Source: Desulfosarcina sp. BuS5
Lineage (GTDB): Bacteria; Desulfobacterota; Desulfobacteria; Desulfobacterales; BuS5
DNA: 64,000 nt
Assembly: GCF_028752835.1 (NCBI RefSeq)
Contig: NZ_CP087952.1
Location: 3,718,501-3,782,500, forward strand
Reading direction: 5' to 3'
Under the pieces are notes generated by a model. It did not search any database and was not told where the DNA came from. It was given only the letters and a program-made list of their open reading frames with translations. A program made the translations under genes and the position numbers. Positions within the stretch are counted from its first letter, which is position 1, and the number at the start of each line of letters is the position of its first letter. Shown here in pieces: positions 29,270 to 38,638 of the stretch.

Positions 29270-29731
29270 TTATGACTTTTTTTTTTGTTTATCCTGGCTG
29301 GACGAAATATCAAGAAATGATTTTAAAGACGATAGGCCTGTCATTGACCGTTGAGTAATATCTGTTATGTCGACTCCTAAAGTAAACCATTTTTTAAACT
29401 GATTATCAAAACTTGCCTTATAATTTAAGAAAGTTTGAATAGCCTGCTGCAAGTATACCTCAAAAAATTCAACCAGCAGATTGTCTCCATACTTAATAAA
29501 CAGATAAAGAAGGGGAACAGGCAATAAGGTATTGTTTTTTTTAGCCTCTTCCATTACAATCTGGGTGAGAACATAAGCAGTGACATCCTCTTTTGTTTTG
29601 GCATCAACGACTTTTATGTCCCGGCCTTTTTTAACCATAACGGCGACTTGCTCCAGGGTGACATATTTGCTCTCTTCCGTGTTGTACAGCCGTCTGTTTG
29701 CATATTTTTTTAAAAACACTGTTTCATTCAT
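29270..29731 (-). CDS. phaR: PhaR-type polyhydroxyalkanoate regulator
   Basis: 153 residues. The N-terminal PHB/PHA DNA-binding domain is clear: KKYANRRLYNTEESKYVTLEQVA, GRDIKVVDAKTKEDVT and LTQIVMEEA. The C-terminal accumulation domain (QAIQTFLNYKASFDNQF) follows, with a Lys-rich end. In characterised species PhaR represses phasin genes and leaves DNA when PHA granules form. It is divergent from the phasin genes at 30139 with a 407-base spacer holding their promoter, so direct control is likely. Confidence 0.93.
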   Translation of the reverse strand: MNETVFLKKYANRRLYNTEESKYVTLEQVAVMVKKGRDIKVVDAKTKEDVTAYVLTQIVMEEAKKNNTLLPVPLLYLFIKYGDNLLVEFFEVYLQQAIQTFLNYKASFDNQFKKWFTLGVDITDITQRSMTGLSSLKSFLDISSSQDKQKKKS

Positions 29732-30138: not shown

Positions 30139-30414
30139 ATGATGGAAGTTGCGGATATGGCAAAACAGATGATTGATTATCAAAAATCTACTTTTAACAA
30201 TGTTTTTAATGCCATGAATATGCTACAAGAACAGTCTGAAAAAATGACAATGGCGTTTTTAGAACAGAGCCCTGCTATTCCTAAGACGGGGAAAAAGTCT
30301 GTTCAGGAATGGAGCCAGGCGGTTAAAAAAGGGCGTGAAGATTTTAAAAAAGTCCTTGATGACAACTTTAGCAAAATGGAAACTCTTTTTTCAGATGCAG
30401 GCCCAAAAGCATAA
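30139..30414 (+). CDS. Phasin-like PHA granule protein 1
   Basis: 91 residues, helical and amphipathic. It has the family pattern of this locus: K-x-F-NNxFNAMNMLQEQSEKM, then K-W-SQAVKKGREDFKKVLDDNFSKME. Such proteins coat PHA granules and limit coalescence. Ribosome site GGGAGG. It lies 21 bases before a paralogue. Short compared with classical ~180-residue phasins. It relates by the same two blocks to the genes at 30436, 37514 and 38009. Confidence 0.8.
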   Translation: MMEVADMAKQMIDYQKSTFNNVFNAMNMLQEQSEKMTMAFLEQSPAIPKTGKKSVQEWSQAVKKGREDFKKVLDDNFSKMETLFSDAGPKA

Positions 30415-30435
30415 AATTTACTTGGAGGGATAAGA

Positions 30436-30699
30436 ATGGATCAGTCAATTTTCATTAAACAGTTTATAGACTTTAACAAGACTACTTTTAACAACATGCT
30501 CAATGCCATCGATTTGTTCCAGCAGCAGTCGGAGGGGATGACAGCCTCGTTACTGGACCAGGCGCCCTGGGTTCCTGATGAAGGGAAAAAGGCTATTAAA
30601 GACTGGATTAATTCAGTTAAAAAAGGTCGTGAAGATTTTAAAAAAATCGTTGATGACAACTTTAGCAAAGTTGAAGATTTTTTGAAGGGGTCAGATTAG
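30436..30699 (+). CDS. Phasin-like PHA granule protein 2
   Basis: 87 residues. It shares FIDFNKTTFNNMLNAIDLFQQQSE and the near-identical KKGREDFKKIVDDNFSKVEDF with its upstream neighbour, so the two arose by tandem duplication. Ribosome site TGGAGGG. A strong terminator follows at 30778, making a two-gene transcript. Confidence 0.8.
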   Translation: MDQSIFIKQFIDFNKTTFNNMLNAIDLFQQQSEGMTASLLDQAPWVPDEGKKAIKDWINSVKKGREDFKKIVDDNFSKVEDFLKGSD

Positions 30700-30856: not shown

Positions 30857-32434
30857 ATGAGCAGATATGATGGGGACTATAAAATTTTTAGTATGCTGGA
30901 GCAATTATTTTTATTGTTGCAGAAATATAACAAAATAGAGCGGGCAGCAACGGATAATGTAAAAATCTCGTTTAGCTACTGGGGTGGTGTTAATAAGTAT
31001 TTAGAAGCATTTGCCAGCCCTTTCCGGACCGCTTTAAATGCATTTAATGCCCTGGAAGCGGAAAAGCTGGTTCAACTCCCGCCCTGGGAGAGTTTCAGGG
31101 ACTATGCCAAGCTTCTTCAGTTTAGCTTGCAGATAGCGGAAAAAGGGCTTTCCGGCAGTACTAAAGCTGTGCAGGAGTATCATCTGAAAAAGTTTGATGA
31201 GGCTTGCCAAGCATGGTTCAATACAATTCTGGATAAAGACGGTGAAGATATCGCATCTTTTTCCGCCAGGCAATTAAAACTCCTTAATCATCTGGTTTAT
31301 ACCTACCCCGAGGCAATAAAAAATATTGGACAGGAATACGGTATCCACCTTGAGGGCGGAGGATATAAAATAGAAGCGGAGACGGACCGCTTTTATCTCT
31401 ACCAGGTTCTTCCCCTGGATCCGAAGGTTAAAGTCAGAAAAAACGGAAAGCCGATTATTATTATTCCTCCGTATGTTTTAGGACCCAATATTCTTGCTTT
31501 TCTGCCCCGGGAACGAAAGAGTTATATACACGCCTTTGCCGATCAGGGTATCCCCACTTATCTAAGGTTCACCAAGGATATCGATACGACCCCGTCTGTT
31601 CAGATCATGACCGGTGAAAACGATGCGCTGGATACGCAGATGTTTTGCAGGAAACTGATATCCAAACATGGAAAAGCGGTTACTCTGAATGGTTACTGCC
31701 AGGGTGGTTTTATCGCTGCCGTTGATGTCCTTTCAGGAAAACTTGACGGGCTGGTCGATGCCCTCATAACCTGCAATAGCCCGATGGACGGCACCAGAAG
31801 CGTTTCTTTGGTCGAATACCTGCAGCATCTGCCAAAGCGGTTCAGGGATTTGGGCTATGCCGTCAGGACTTTGCCAAGCGGTAATCAGGTTGTGGATGGT
31901 GAAGTAATGAGCTGGGTATACAAGTTGAAAAGTATGGAAGTAGAGGCGCCCCTCGTTACCTTTTATCGAGATCTGGCAATGTTTGACAGGGCAAACGGAA
32001 CTGATCTGCCAATTAACAAAACCGGCGTGGCCATTAATCACTGGCTGATTTATGACCGCAACGATTTTCCGGTTGAAATTACAAAAATGAGCTTTAACTC
32101 TTACACAATCCCGGTAGCCGGGGATGGAACCCTTCCTGTTAAACTTTTTGGGAAAAAGCTGAATTTTAAGCGCATAAAGGAAAAAGGGATAAAATTTCTT
32201 ATCTGCTGTGGCGATAAAGATGATCTGGTGGATATGCCCTCAGCTTTGGCTCCGCTTGACTATATCGATGCTGAGGTAACGGTCTTTCCAAAGGGGCATG
32301 CTGCAATCGCCACGTCATGGTCCAAGCCTGATTCCAAGTGTGCCCTGCATACCTGTTTTGGCGAGAATTGCCGTGGACCTGTGCGTTACCAACTCGATTT
32401 AGAAAAAGAACTGGACGAAAAATCTGATGGATAA
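30857..32434 (+). CDS. PHA-synthase-like alpha/beta hydrolase, long form
   Basis: 525 residues. A ~180-residue helical N-terminal part precedes the alpha/beta core. The synthase-type lipase box with Cys is present (LNGYCQGGF, Cys281), with a likely Asp455 (CGDKDDLVD) and His481 (FPKGHAAIA). This is the Cys-Asp-His arrangement of PhaC. The rest is remote from class I and class III PhaC, and a C-terminal Cys cluster (CALHTCFGENC, residues 495-505) is unusual. It overlaps the next gene by 8 bases and lies in line with phaE and a class III phaC. It may be a second synthase, a depolymerase or a transferase that uses PHA. Confidence 0.7.
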   Translation: MSRYDGDYKIFSMLEQLFLLLQKYNKIERAATDNVKISFSYWGGVNKYLEAFASPFRTALNAFNALEAEKLVQLPPWESFRDYAKLLQFSLQIAEKGLSGSTKAVQEYHLKKFDEACQAWFNTILDKDGEDIASFSARQLKLLNHLVYTYPEAIKNIGQEYGIHLEGGGYKIEAETDRFYLYQVLPLDPKVKVRKNGKPIIIIPPYVLGPNILAFLPRERKSYIHAFADQGIPTYLRFTKDIDTTPSVQIMTGENDALDTQMFCRKLISKHGKAVTLNGYCQGGFIAAVDVLSGKLDGLVDALITCNSPMDGTRSVSLVEYLQHLPKRFRDLGYAVRTLPSGNQVVDGEVMSWVYKLKSMEVEAPLVTFYRDLAMFDRANGTDLPINKTGVAINHWLIYDRNDFPVEITKMSFNSYTIPVAGDGTLPVKLFGKKLNFKRIKEKGIKFLICCGDKDDLVDMPSALAPLDYIDAEVTVFPKGHAAIATSWSKPDSKCALHTCFGENCRGPVRYQLDLEKELDEKSDG

Positions 32435-32936
32435 ACATTTTTTAGAATTTATAGGTAATTGTTTCATCAGCGCCGCCAAGGGCCAAAAACATATGGAAGA
32501 TATGGAAAGAGGGATGAGCCGGGGCTTGAACGATTTTGGCGATCTGTTTGAAATGTTTAAAAAGTTTTATGGGTTAGAGCGACTGAAAGATAAGCCTCCG
32601 GATTACCCTGAAACCCGGGAAAAATTTATTAAAGATTTTAAAAAATTATTTAGTGATTATCTTAGTTTTTTCAGTACGGCATCCTTTGAAGAGCATCTTT
32701 CCCTTGTCAATAAATACGAAGCGCTTAAAAAGAAGGCCGACGAGCAGGAAAAAACTATAAAAAGGCTGCAGAGCCGGAGCGGTGAGAGTTTAACCGGGCA
32801 GGAAAAAATAGCTGAAAACCTTCAATCCCTCATCAATGATCAAACAGATCAGTTCCAAAAAATGATGGATAGTTTTGGGCAATTTGCAAAAAGCAGCGCA
32901 AAAATATCAGCAAGCCGGAGAAAAAATCATGACTGA
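32427..32936 (+). CDS. Small helical protein of the PHA synthase operon, PhaE-like
   Basis: 169 residues, no membrane segment. It is predicted all-helical with coiled-coil stretches (EALKKKADEQEKTIKRLQS; LINDQTDQFQKMMDSFGQFAK). It overlaps the gene before by 8 bases and the next by 8, so it is coupled to both. Placement between a PHA-synthase-like gene and phaE suggests a subunit or partner of the long synthase, analogous to PhaE for PhaC. No clear family was recognised. Confidence 0.65.
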   Translation: MDKHFLEFIGNCFISAAKGQKHMEDMERGMSRGLNDFGDLFEMFKKFYGLERLKDKPPDYPETREKFIKDFKKLFSDYLSFFSTASFEEHLSLVNKYEALKKKADEQEKTIKRLQSRSGESLTGQEKIAENLQSLINDQTDQFQKMMDSFGQFAKSSAKISASRRKNHD

Positions 32937-33825
32937 TACGGGCAATAAAGACCCAGGGGCAAAGTTTTCAGAGTGGTTAAACAGCGCAAACGAGTTCTGG
33001 GGATCTATGGGCAAAATATGGCAGGATTCCCTGCAAACAGGCTGTGCTTCGGCCACGCAAGATAAGAGTGATAATGGCGGCAACCAAAAAGGATGGGAAT
33101 CGGCGTTTAGGATGTGGCGCTTGTTTGCATCTGTCCTGGCCGAGCCCTCATTTGCAGGCACATTTTTGAAAGGAATCAATGCCATGCCTGATACCTTCTT
33201 AAAGGTCGCCGGCACAGGGCTGACAGGTTTTTTACAGTTTTATCAGCAATGGCAGGAAAAAGCAGGCCGGATGGGAAAAAACACCAAAGCATACAGTTTT
33301 GATCACCTTGACCAGGAAATGTTTACGGCCTGGAAGGAGTTGTATGAACAAGAAATCAGGCAGTTTCTGAAAATTCCCCAGTTTGGATTGCTCCGTGGTT
33401 ACCAGGAAAGGTTTATGGAGGGTTTAGATGATTTTAACATTTTTCAATCTTCAATGGGTGAATTTATTCATCTTCTCAGCCTGCCTATAGAAAAATCATT
33501 TAATGTATTACAGCAACAACTTGAAGAACTGGAAAAAAACGGTGAATTTCCTTCGGATCCGCATGAAATTTACAGACTATGGGTTAAAATACTTGAAGGG
33601 CATTTTATGACACTTTTCAAGTCCTCGGAATATGGCGAGTCTTTAGCGCGTGCCCTGAAAGACATGGGATTGTTCATTTCAGCCAAAGACAATTTTTTAC
33701 ACGATGTCCTGCAATCTCTTCCTATTCCTACCAACAAGGATATGGATGAACTTTACAAAGATTTGTATCTGCTAAAAAAGAAAGTAAAAGAATTGGATAA
33801 GAAATTCGCAGCAGGCAGTAAATAA
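32929..33825 (+). CDS. phaE: Class III PHA synthase subunit PhaE
   Basis: 298 residues from ATG 32929 (CCGGAG ribosome site); the longer frame from 32875 lies inside the previous gene. The PhaE pattern is visible: FSEWLNSANEFWGSMGKIW near the start, and a C-terminal SLPIPTNKDMDELYKDLYLLKKKVKELDKKF coiled coil typical of the PhaE end. PhaE forms the active complex with short PhaC proteins. It is followed 32 bases later by phaC, and the set defines a class III synthase. Confidence 0.85.
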   Translation: MTDTGNKDPGAKFSEWLNSANEFWGSMGKIWQDSLQTGCASATQDKSDNGGNQKGWESAFRMWRLFASVLAEPSFAGTFLKGINAMPDTFLKVAGTGLTGFLQFYQQWQEKAGRMGKNTKAYSFDHLDQEMFTAWKELYEQEIRQFLKIPQFGLLRGYQERFMEGLDDFNIFQSSMGEFIHLLSLPIEKSFNVLQQQLEELEKNGEFPSDPHEIYRLWVKILEGHFMTLFKSSEYGESLARALKDMGLFISAKDNFLHDVLQSLPIPTNKDMDELYKDLYLLKKKVKELDKKFAAGSK

Positions 33826-33857: not shown

Positions 33858-35033
33858 TTGGAAGCGCCGCGAATTCCTGTAGACCTGATTTTATCTAAAC
33901 TTGCAGAAGATACGGAAAAGTTTCATGAACGTGTAAAAAAAGGTTCTGATGTTTTATTGGATAAGCTCGATACCCAAATAGCCACCACGCCCTATGATAT
34001 TGAGTACGAAGAAGACCGGGTTAAACTAAAACATTACAGGCCTGTAACCGAATCATCGCTTAAAACCCCGCTGCTTATTGTTTATGCCCTTATTAACAGG
34101 GAGACCATGCTCGACCTTCAGCCCGGCAGAAGCGTTGTGCAATCATTTTTAGAGAAGGGGATCGACGTATATATGGTCGACTGGGGTTATCCTACCCGCA
34201 AAGACAAGTTTATTACCATCGATGATCATGTCAACGGTTACATGGACAACATTGCCGATTATATTCTTAAAAAACATAAGGTTAAAAAAATTAATCTTAT
34301 GGGGATTTGCATGGGAGGATCCTTTTGCGTTATGTATTCCGCCCTGCATCCCGGTAAGGTAAGGAATCTGATTACCACAGTTACACCGACAAATTTTGAG
34401 ACTGATCAGGGGTTGCTGCATATCTGGATGAAACATATAGACGTAGATTCTCTTGTGGACACTTTCGGCAATATGCCGGGAGATATGATGAATTTTGGTT
34501 TTTTGATTCTAAATCCGGCCCGACTTATGATCGACAAATATGTCGGATTGCTGGAGAACATTGGCGACAAGACCTTTGTGGAAAATTTTGTCCGGATGGA
34601 AAAGTGGATTTTCGACAGTCCTGATGTCGCGGGTGAAACTTTCCGGCAGTTTGTTGTAGACTGTTATCAAAAGAATCTATTGATCCAAAGCAAAATGATG
34701 CTCGGAGACCAACGGGTGAACCTGAAAAAAATTACCATGCCGCTTTTAAATATTTATGGCAGATATGATCACCTGGTCCCTCCTGCTGCATGCGATCTCC
34801 TCTCTAGTAAGGTGGGAAGCAAAGATGTTCAGGATGATTGCCTTGAGACAGGGCATATCGGAATATATGTAAGTTCCAGGGTTCAGAACAAATTGGTCCC
34901 CAGGATTGTAAAATGGCTGGAAGAAAGGGACACAATTAAAAAAACAAAACGAAAAAAGGCTGCAACAAAAACAGCAAAAAAAGCTGAAGAAAAAGTTGTC
35001 TTTAAACGAAAAATTAAGGGTGCGGCCGTTTAG
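33858..35033 (+). CDS. phaC: Class III PHA synthase catalytic subunit with basic Lys/Ala tail
   Basis: 391 residues. Start is TTG at 33858 with TGGAGG 7 bases before it. Catalytic Cys151 (GICMGG), Asp304 (GRYDHLVPP) and His333 (ETGHIGIYVS) match Cys149, Asp302 and His331 of the Allochromatium enzyme. VYALINRETMLDLQPGRS and VDWGYP are further class III marks. It polymerises (R)-3-hydroxyacyl-CoA on the granule. Beyond residue 360 a tail rich in Lys and Ala (KKTKRKKAATKTAKKAEEK) is present, absent from ordinary ~355-residue PhaC. It looks like the basic tail of PhaF or AlgP, which bind DNA. Granule-to-nucleoid tethering is inference. Confidence 0.93.
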   Translation: MEAPRIPVDLILSKLAEDTEKFHERVKKGSDVLLDKLDTQIATTPYDIEYEEDRVKLKHYRPVTESSLKTPLLIVYALINRETMLDLQPGRSVVQSFLEKGIDVYMVDWGYPTRKDKFITIDDHVNGYMDNIADYILKKHKVKKINLMGICMGGSFCVMYSALHPGKVRNLITTVTPTNFETDQGLLHIWMKHIDVDSLVDTFGNMPGDMMNFGFLILNPARLMIDKYVGLLENIGDKTFVENFVRMEKWIFDSPDVAGETFRQFVVDCYQKNLLIQSKMMLGDQRVNLKKITMPLLNIYGRYDHLVPPAACDLLSSKVGSKDVQDDCLETGHIGIYVSSRVQNKLVPRIVKWLEERDTIKKTKRKKAATKTAKKAEEKVVFKRKIKGAAV

Positions 35034-35067: not shown

Positions 35068-36114
35068 ATGATAAGAAAACAAAGTTTTTTTCAATCATTC
35101 TGTAAAATTTGCAGGGTATTAGGAACCAGCGCCGACGTTAATGAAATTTTGGATCTTCTAATTCAAAACGTGATTGACACAATGGATGGCAAGGCGGCCT
35201 GCATTTTTTTGGCGGATGAAGAAAAGGATATATTTGTGCCGGCTGCAGAAAAAGGCCTGTCGAAAAACTACTACCACACAAGGCCGAAGCACGCCAGGAA
35301 GATGGTTGAGGATATCCTGAAAGGAGGTCATATTTTTATTTATGACGCCACATCCGACCCGCTGGCGGGAGACTGCGAATCAAAAAAAGCCGAAGGCATC
35401 GCCTCCATCCTGGTTGTTCCGGTCATGGTCAAGGATAAAGCCATAGGTATCTTAAGCCTCTATACTTCAACTCCGAGAAATTTTACCAGCGATGAGATCG
35501 AATTCCTGTCAGCGGTTGCTGAACAGGGAGGAATGGCCCTGGAACATGCCAGGCTGCTGGAACAGATCAGGGAGAACAACAAGCTTTTTTTCAGTATCTC
35601 GTCAAAGATCAATTCTTCCCTTGATGTGAAAAAGGTCCTTAATATCTTCGCTTCCGAGATTGCACATTTTTTCGACTTAAAGGCCTTGACAATACGTCTT
35701 CTCAGCGAAGATAAAAAAGGTCTGCAGCTTGTGACCAGTTATGGATTGAGCACTAAATATTTAAACAAGGGTGCGATAAGCATGGGAAGAAATATCAACA
35801 AAGTCTTGGATGGTAATATAATAAACGTTAAAGACGCCCTTTCTGATCAAAGAATTCAATACAAAAAGGAAAAACAGGAAGAAGAGATTGCATCTATGCT
35901 TTACGCCCCTATCAGGGCCGGTGAAAAGATTATCGGCGTGATGACCCTGTACAGCGGAACCATACGTGAATTTACTGAAGATGAGATAACCATGGTGAAT
36001 GCTCTTGCGCTTCAGGGGGGGCTTGCAATTCAGAATGCGTCATTACATCTGGCGCTCAAGGATGAGATGAAAGGTCTTAAGGATGATATCTGGAGCCATC
36101 GCATGTGGTTTTAA
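35068..36114 (+). CDS. Tandem GAF-domain sensor protein
   Basis: 348 residues. Two GAF domains: ~20-165 (AACIFLADEEKDIFVPAAEKG, ILVVPVMVKDKAIGILSLYTS) and ~185-330 (LTIRLLSEDKKGLQL, MLYAPIRAGEKIIGVMTLYSG). There is no kinase, cyclase or DNA-binding output. It may deliver a signal through protein contacts. Ribosome site GAAGGAG, 34 bases behind phaC, so possibly part of the PHA operon. Ligand unknown. Confidence 0.85.
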   Translation: MIRKQSFFQSFCKICRVLGTSADVNEILDLLIQNVIDTMDGKAACIFLADEEKDIFVPAAEKGLSKNYYHTRPKHARKMVEDILKGGHIFIYDATSDPLAGDCESKKAEGIASILVVPVMVKDKAIGILSLYTSTPRNFTSDEIEFLSAVAEQGGMALEHARLLEQIRENNKLFFSISSKINSSLDVKKVLNIFASEIAHFFDLKALTIRLLSEDKKGLQLVTSYGLSTKYLNKGAISMGRNINKVLDGNIINVKDALSDQRIQYKKEKQEEEIASMLYAPIRAGEKIIGVMTLYSGTIREFTEDEITMVNALALQGGLAIQNASLHLALKDEMKGLKDDIWSHRMWF

Positions 36115-37513: not shown

Positions 37514-37870
37514 CTATTTTTTGGTTACGTTTTCTTTTTCCGCCGCATTTTTGGGCGCGGGTTTTTTTTCCGTCGTATTTTTAGTTACGTTCTCTTTTTC
37601 TTTCACAGGCTCCGCAAAAAACTCCTCAGCCTTTTTGAAATTTTCTTCAACGGCCTTTTTGAAATCCCTGCATCCCTTCTGGTATACTTTGACATATTCA
37701 TCCACGAATTTTCTACCCTCTCCCGGCATCATCCATATGCCCTGCCCCATGGGCGACATATTTGCCATTTTTTCCATCTGCTCCTGGAGCATTGTCATGG
37801 CATTAAAGGCATTATTAAATATGGTTTTGTTAAAGTTGATTATCTGTTTTAGCATTGTAGCCTGTTCCAT
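37514..37870 (-). CDS. Phasin-like PHA granule protein 3
   Basis: 118 residues. It shares INFNKTIFNNAFNAMTMLQEQMEKM and YQKGCRDFKKAVEENFKKAEEFF with the other phasins here. A low-complexity tail repeats KENVTKN and EKKPAPKNA, probably a flexible granule-exposed arm. Ribosome site AAGGAG. It lies 138 bases downstream of phasin 4 on the same strand and is probably co-transcribed. Confidence 0.8.
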   Translation of the reverse strand: MEQATMLKQIINFNKTIFNNAFNAMTMLQEQMEKMANMSPMGQGIWMMPGEGRKFVDEYVKVYQKGCRDFKKAVEENFKKAEEFFAEPVKEKENVTKNTTEKKPAPKNAAEKENVTKK

Positions 37871-38008
37871 TTTTTCTCCTTAATCTTTTAAGTGGTTTCT
37901 CTATCCCGGGAGGTTGTCTCCAGGATACATTTATATTGCCTACCGGTTTATAAATCCTGTAAAGATATGGCTGGCTGCGAACCAGTTAAATCGGCTGTTC
38001 CGGCTGTT

Positions 38009-38638
38009 TTATGACTGGTGGACTGGTGCTTTCACCACCTTTTCAGGGGGCGCAGATAAGGGGTTAAGTTTCATGGGTAGTGCTGCAATAACTTCGCTGG
38101 CCCTGGTTATGTCTTCCTGGAGGCCATCCATTTTTTTTTCTAACTGGTCTACGGCCTTTTTGATCTTTTCGAGTGAAGAAGCGGCGGGCATTCCTTTTTC
38201 GATCTGATTGAGAGCTTTCTTCAGGGGTTCGAGATCTTCCTTTGCCGTTAAGGTCTTTTTTTTCAAGATGCTGTTCACTACCTCTTGCGGCCAGTTCCGT
38301 TTTTCAAGAGCAGCAAGTCTTGACCCCATAGCCCCGATATCCTCATGAACCTGGGTTATTTTTTGCTCCATTGCCTTGTCGGCCCCTTCACTCTCAAAAT
38401 CCATTTTTTCAAAATTTTTATCAACGGCCTTTTTAAAGTCACTACATCCTGTTTTGTACGACTCCAACCATCCATCCATCATTTTTCTCCCTTCCTCAGG
38501 AATAGGGAAGATCCGTCCCAACGATGTATTGAATATTTTTTCTGTCTGTTCTTGCAACATCGCTATTGCATTGAAGCTTTTGTCAAATGCACTCCTGTTA
38601 AAGCCGATAAACTGTTTTGTCAATTTTGCAGTATCCAT
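38009..38638 (-). CDS. Phasin-like PHA granule protein 4, with coiled-coil extension
   Basis: 209 residues. Residues 1-80 repeat the local phasin pattern (FIGFNRSAFDKSFNAIAMLQEQTEK; YKTGCSDFKKAVDKNFEKM). Residues ~85-190 form long coiled-coil helices (EQKITQVHEDIGAMGSRLAALEKR; LEKIKKAVDQLEKKMDGLQEDI) like the oligomerisation part of larger phasins. Ribosome site GGGAGGG. It is driven by a consensus promoter at 38693-38720 with the PhaR-type motif. Confidence 0.82.
   Translation of the reverse strand: MDTAKLTKQFIGFNRSAFDKSFNAIAMLQEQTEKIFNTSLGRIFPIPEEGRKMMDGWLESYKTGCSDFKKAVDKNFEKMDFESEGADKAMEQKITQVHEDIGAMGSRLAALEKRNWPQEVVNSILKKKTLTAKEDLEPLKKALNQIEKGMPAASSLEKIKKAVDQLEKKMDGLQEDITRASEVIAALPMKLNPLSAPPEKVVKAPVHQS

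Follow-up and report, generated by a model that had tools for sequence, protein, structure and literature searches.

Why does a class III PHA synthase of Desulfosarcina sp. BuS5 run on past its catalytic core into a lysine-rich tail, and what might that tail hold on to? The gene lies in the window, the stretch of 64,000 nucleotides of genomic DNA analysed here, and comprises the following parts.

33858-35033, + strand: open reading frame of the class III synthase PhaC, 391 aa, TTG start with GGAGG just 5' of it
33858..34931, + strand: PhaC synthase core, residues 1-358 (TIGR01836; Cys151-Asp304-His333)
34932..35030, + strand: basic C-terminal tail, 33 residues, net charge +12, predicted disordered (composition; pLDDT <50)
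35009..35013, + strand: poly-A run in which a one-base length difference from the congener decides the last six residues

The class III PhaC model TIGR01836 matches residues 10-357 at 444.2 bits (cut-off 365.3), and C151, D304 and H333, whose catalytic role we take to be as in known PhaCs, are invariant in 34 of 34 aligned sequences. The closest solved structures, by sequence and by fold, are PHA synthases. Judged by the model cut-off, the catalytic triad and an adjacent phaE gene, membership in the class III PHA synthases as the PhaC subunit stands; the protein exceeds the usual end near residue 355, but this length is customary rather than defining. The genome contains one close copy of PhaC, besides two weak matches (1.3e-5 and 6e-4). 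Pfam and NCBIfam profile searches reveal no phasin domain (PF05597 / TIGR01837) in the protein at E 0.01, and no PhaM entry is among its matches in these searches.

Counted from residue 359, the tail contains 14 Lys or Arg, two acidic residues (both Glu) and six Ala. AlphaFold gives residues 361-391 a pLDDT <50 beside a well-predicted core, so that the tail is predicted to be disordered. The preliminary description had recognised a Lys/Ala-rich tail beyond the class III core, which is borne out by the end of the TIGR01836 match at 357, and had given it 28 residues, here corrected to 33. When the last 33 residues are compared across 355 crude ORFs (≥100 aa) from 460,517 bases of the window genome (the window plus 20 stretches), those of PhaC are the most basic (+12; mean 0.9, sd 3.3). 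The tail has no KPAA repeats; it contains one TAKKA and no PAKKA. A congener (G098/L033), 96% identical, carries the same PhaC tail, one A apart in the poly-A run: the congener's protein stops there, and that of the window adds IKGAAV. These last six residues may reflect a real indel or an assembly error. A frameshift in the assembly, which the preliminary description had raised as a possible origin of the whole tail, is ruled out for 27 of the 33 residues because the congener keeps them; six residues at most are affected.

How common such a tail is among related PhaCs, a check proposed at the outset, could be answered from the genome collection. PhaC was detected at 1e-60 in 96 of 291 genomes of the order. 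In the phylum, 47 of 395 genomes have a TIGR01836 match at 1e-60, and 19 loci added from the collection bring the set to 165 non-redundant rows. A tail of at least 20 residues is present in 104 of the 139 complete relatives at ≥55% identity. Eighty of these tails carry a net charge of at least +5, 18 lie between 0 and +4, and six are negative (median +8.5). At 30-55% identity, 18 of 20 complete rows end no more than 7 residues past the core, and the rhizobial and Bosea PhaCs end one residue past it (3/3 fetched). Of 60 family labels, 42 include one or more rows with a basic PhaC tail. Since tails are frequent at ≥55% identity and rare below, the sequences place the basic tail mainly in this branch of the class III synthases, some members of which are without it.

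The tails are rich in Lys, Ala, Ser, Thr and Pro, with 11% hydrophobic residues vs 40% in the core. PAKKA-like motifs appear in 15 of 104 tails, strict PAKKA in none. Beyond close relatives the tails are barely alignable, a sign of rapid turnover, and what is conserved, as far as sequence comparison can tell, is their bulk character rather than their sequence. The proportion of Arg, R/(K+R), tracks core GC (rho 0.44), Arg replacing Lys at higher GC; for net charge density the correlation with core GC is 0.03.

Such fast turnover is also what one would expect if the C-terminus were permissive and the tail a low-complexity extension that is tolerated there and drifts quickly, binding nothing in particular and owing its charge to slippage and purine-rich DNA. 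We regard this explanation as unlikely, although several observations fit it. The tail DNA is equally basic in its other two frames (0.216) and still fairly basic when shuffled (0.135 vs 0.207), so base composition accounts for part of the charge. Over 41 pairs of relatives there is no depletion of charge-changing substitutions (388/904 seen, 385 expected), and a one-base indel suffices to set the last six residues apart from those of the congener. Against drift, a comparison with the translation of the DNA downstream finds the tail to be the more basic of the two in 42 of 50 family labels (0.209 vs 0.091 per residue, Wilcoxon p 1.4e-6). In 15 pairs the tails can be aligned; this subset, picked afterwards, gives a pooled dN/dS of 0.37, and its members show a weak deficit of charge-changing substitutions (69/193 vs 83 expected, p 0.04). 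The gene 3' of phaC provides a control.

35068..36114, + strand: two-GAF-domain protein (PF13185, 109 bits, two stretches)

Homologues of this protein occur in 31 of 40 PhaC neighbourhoods, and their last 33 residues carry a net charge of -4 to +1 in 33 of 33 rows, none of them basic, which likewise speaks against drift.

A further line of evidence comes from the partner subunit, encoded directly upstream.

32875..33825, + strand: PhaE subunit, no basic tail (PF09712, 75.7 bits; TIGR01834, 74.3 bits, below the cut-off of 154.95)

The window PhaE extends 4 aa past residue 312, with a net charge of +1. With one threshold for both subunits (at least 20 residues past the core and a net charge of at least +5), the 148 complete PhaC-PhaE pairs at ≥30% identity divide into 77 with the basic tail on PhaC, 10 with it on PhaE, none with both and 61 with neither. 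Varying threshold and identity over eight settings never yields a pair with both tails (Fisher p between 7e-5 and 0.045). A later set of 30 pairs gives 16, 3, 0 and 11 at the same threshold; two of its three PhaE cases (L297, L307) have coiled-coil-like repeats with a basic end and do not look disordered. With L128_1868 added by hand, the total of 179 pairs comprises 93 on PhaC, 14 on PhaE, none on both and 72 on neither (Fisher 1.9e-5, the rows entering all these Fisher counts being related and hence not independent). When phylogeny is taken into account, a Pagel-type model on a FastTree tree retains the pattern (LR 11.9, p 0.018), which again argues against drift, and the treekit independent-pairs test on 149 rows gives no decision either way. 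The first tree requires 8 gains or losses of the PhaE tail, and 6 of these changes fall on well-supported branches.

Individual loci illustrate the alternation. Genome G125 encodes two nearby synthases, one with a tailed PhaC and a plain PhaE, the other with a bare PhaC and a basic-ended PhaE (L247), and in Bosea, outside the pair counts, a bare PhaC accompanies a PhaE whose final 33 residues carry a charge of +7. A same-genus contrast between G145 and G166 is only suggestive, because these genomes have listed contamination of 6% and 7%. PhaC was found in 3 of 8 genomes of genus g9 and in 1 of 1 of family f45, too few to resolve the swap more finely. Among the 61 pairs of the first 148 in which neither tail reaches the threshold, 22 nevertheless have ≥20 residues past the PhaC core, only less strongly charged. 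Pairs bare on both subunits (PhaC no more than 7 and PhaE no more than 12 residues past the core) number 21 of 148 in the first set, which favours drift, and 7 of 30 in the later one; a clade of 7 rows is without any such tail. That no sampled pair has both tails points to a function of the tail in the synthase complex.

Other proteins of the neighbourhood might carry an equivalent tail, and the genes upstream of phaE are listed here.

29270..29731, - strand: PhaR regulator (PF07879, 97.3 bits; TIGR01848, 101.9 bits, below the cut-off of 109.45)
30139..30414, + strand: short phasin-like ORF (name assigned here), no family match over cut-off, homologues in many PhaC neighbourhoods
30436..30699, + strand: second short phasin-like ORF (name assigned here), no family match over cut-off
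30857..32434, + strand: 525-aa PhaC/PhaZ-like protein, recognised by eye (GYCQGG), no Pfam or NCBIfam match at E 0.01

The 525-aa protein was considered as an alternative carrier. Many of the 40 PhaC neighbourhoods contain a homologue of it, and five of these homologues end in a basic C-terminus (L219, L241, L242, L247 and L250), but four of the five adjoin a basic-tailed PhaC, and so there is no exclusivity. A PhaF-like phasin as the carrier elsewhere was likewise rejected: TIGR01837 matches at 1e-8 in 10 of 291 genomes, never over its cut-off, and the eight loci fetched of 11 matches contain no basic C-terminus. The window genome itself has no PhaF-type phasin over the model cut-off and none at 1e-8.

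Granule proteins with DNA-binding ends are known. PhaM, PhaF and PhaH are described as binding DNA through their C-terminal ends, that of PhaM being histone-like, and for the tails of PhaF and AlgP a role as non-specific nucleoid tethers of granules has been proposed (PMC13052382, PMC9239181, PMC9049629). In PhaM, nucleoid attachment of granules is attributed to four lysines of the PAKKA motifs, and the tethers covered by a 2025 review (PhaM, PhaF, PhaH) appear there as separate proteins. The window PhaC resembles the phasin PhaF of Pseudomonas and AlgP, as they are described, in having a Lys/Ala-rich disordered C-terminal tail on a granule protein, but theirs are long KPAA repeats on a phasin or on AlgP, whereas the window has 33 residues without KPAA on a catalytic subunit that lacks a phasin domain. 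It shares with PhaM of Ralstonia eutropha the C-terminal position of the charge, which in PhaM is reported to link a PhaC-binding protein to DNA through basic PAKKA motifs; unlike here, where the charge is on PhaC or PhaE and the window has the single TAKKA, PhaM is described as a separate PhaC-binding and PhaC-activating protein. PhaH of Caulobacter, a granule protein with a C-terminal DNA-binding part, is reported to be a phasin with a helix-hairpin-helix rather than a synthase.

A further parallel is archaeal. All five haloarchaeal PhaCs fetched (L329, L330, L332-L334) have an HHH_5 domain past the core, so that here too a class III PhaC ends in a putative DNA-binding part, as proposed for the window. 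Theirs is a folded helix-hairpin-helix in an acidic extension (net -6 to -21), whereas the window tail is basic and predicted disordered. The HHH_5 of Haloferax mediterranei PhaC has been linked to PhaH and is said to be absent from bacterial PhaC (2025, PMC12028471). For archaea, then, a DNA-binding part belonging to the synthase itself has already been suggested in print. We found no published report of a basic tail on a bacterial PhaC or PhaE in searches of open-licence papers; a 2004 paper on PhaEC of Desulfococcus multivorans may mention one.

The explanation we favour is that the window protein is a normal class III PHA synthase subunit, a folded core followed by a disordered lysine-rich tail, and that this tail would let the PhaE-PhaC complex hold non-specifically to the nucleoid. 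A nascent granule would then start on the chromosome and stay with it. The protein presumably sits on the granule as a PhaC does, and its disordered basic C-terminus is a feature shared with the AlgP-, PhaF- and PhaM-like tethers; it may work as their tails do, but as part of the synthase. A single tail seems to suffice for each complex, so that either PhaC or PhaE may carry it. The published tethers, together with the lack of a PhaF-type phasin over cut-off and of any match to the polyphosphate kinases PPK1 (PF02503) and PPK2 (PF03976) at 1e-5 in the 97% complete window genome, favour a nucleoid tether. From this analogy we infer DNA as the partner, with tethering and partition at division as the consequences, and give about even chances to a non-specific nucleoid tether built into the synthase, outside the PhaF, PhaM and AlgP families.

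The preliminary description had likewise read the tail as a possible tether held by the synthase itself. Its core idea of a function gains from the spread over 42 of 60 family labels and from the tail never occurring, in the sample, beside a basic PhaE tail, which point to a role for the synthase complex; tethering as such is consistent with PhaM, PhaF, PhaH and AlgP by analogy, and against it stand the lack of KPAA repeats and the 72 of 179 pairs without a basic tail, by threshold, on either subunit. More tentatively, and at somewhat less than even chances, the Desulfobacterota-like synthase may be its own chromosome tether, with one DNA-binding tail that moved repeatedly between PhaC and PhaE, and haloarchaea may have reached the same arrangement with a helix-hairpin-helix. 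If so, a granule would be attached to the chromosome as soon as its first polymer chain forms. A synthase with a built-in tether would account for the placement and sharing of granules in organisms without PhaM, PhaF or PhaH, and the tail would offer a means of adjusting granule number in strains that produce plastic.

The tail could instead act within the synthase, by its charge, on PhaC-PhaE or phasin assembly, solubility or activity rather than by binding DNA. The PhaC core (net -5, pI 6.0) and PhaE (pI 5.9) are both acidic, a basic tail could bridge them, and a location on either subunit fits this explanation equally well. In Haloferax mediterranei, PhaC is reported to need its longer C-terminus for activity (PMC2939530), but the haloarchaeal extension is acidic and contains a different domain, and hence is not the same part. 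The three rhizobial and Bosea PhaCs, and many relatives, moreover end at the core, their activity being assumed. This role is improbable to about the same degree as drift. Least probable of all is that the tail binds a polyanion other than DNA, such as polyphosphate, RNA or the head groups of phospholipids, for which AlgP, with its KPAA-repeat tail, is the precedent, being located on polyphosphate granules with a C-terminus described as needed for their spacing (PMC9239181), and against which, for polyphosphate only, the missing kinase matches count.

Several smaller observations concern the proteins around PhaC. The regions 30139-30699 and 37514-38638 encode a set of four phasin-like proteins that are related to each other (two of some 90 aa, one of 118 aa with a Lys/Glu/Asn-rich tail and one of 209 aa) and match the same ORFs in many loci, with no phasin model over its cut-off. 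The 525-aa GYCQGG protein possibly belongs to an unnamed PHA synthase or depolymerase family. TIGR01834 matches at 1e-6 in 121 of 389 genomes of the class and over its cut-off in 0 of 389, and this cut-off misses the present branch of PhaE. PhaE C-termini are themselves varied: L297 and L307 (G698, G728) have tandem coiled-coil-like repeats, KNTEIKK..SQLSKEIELLKKMYAD, past the core, and the PhaE of L216/L061 (G044) has an AlgP-like KKAPAAKAPA repeat tail, broken by an N run and an apparent assembly frame shift.
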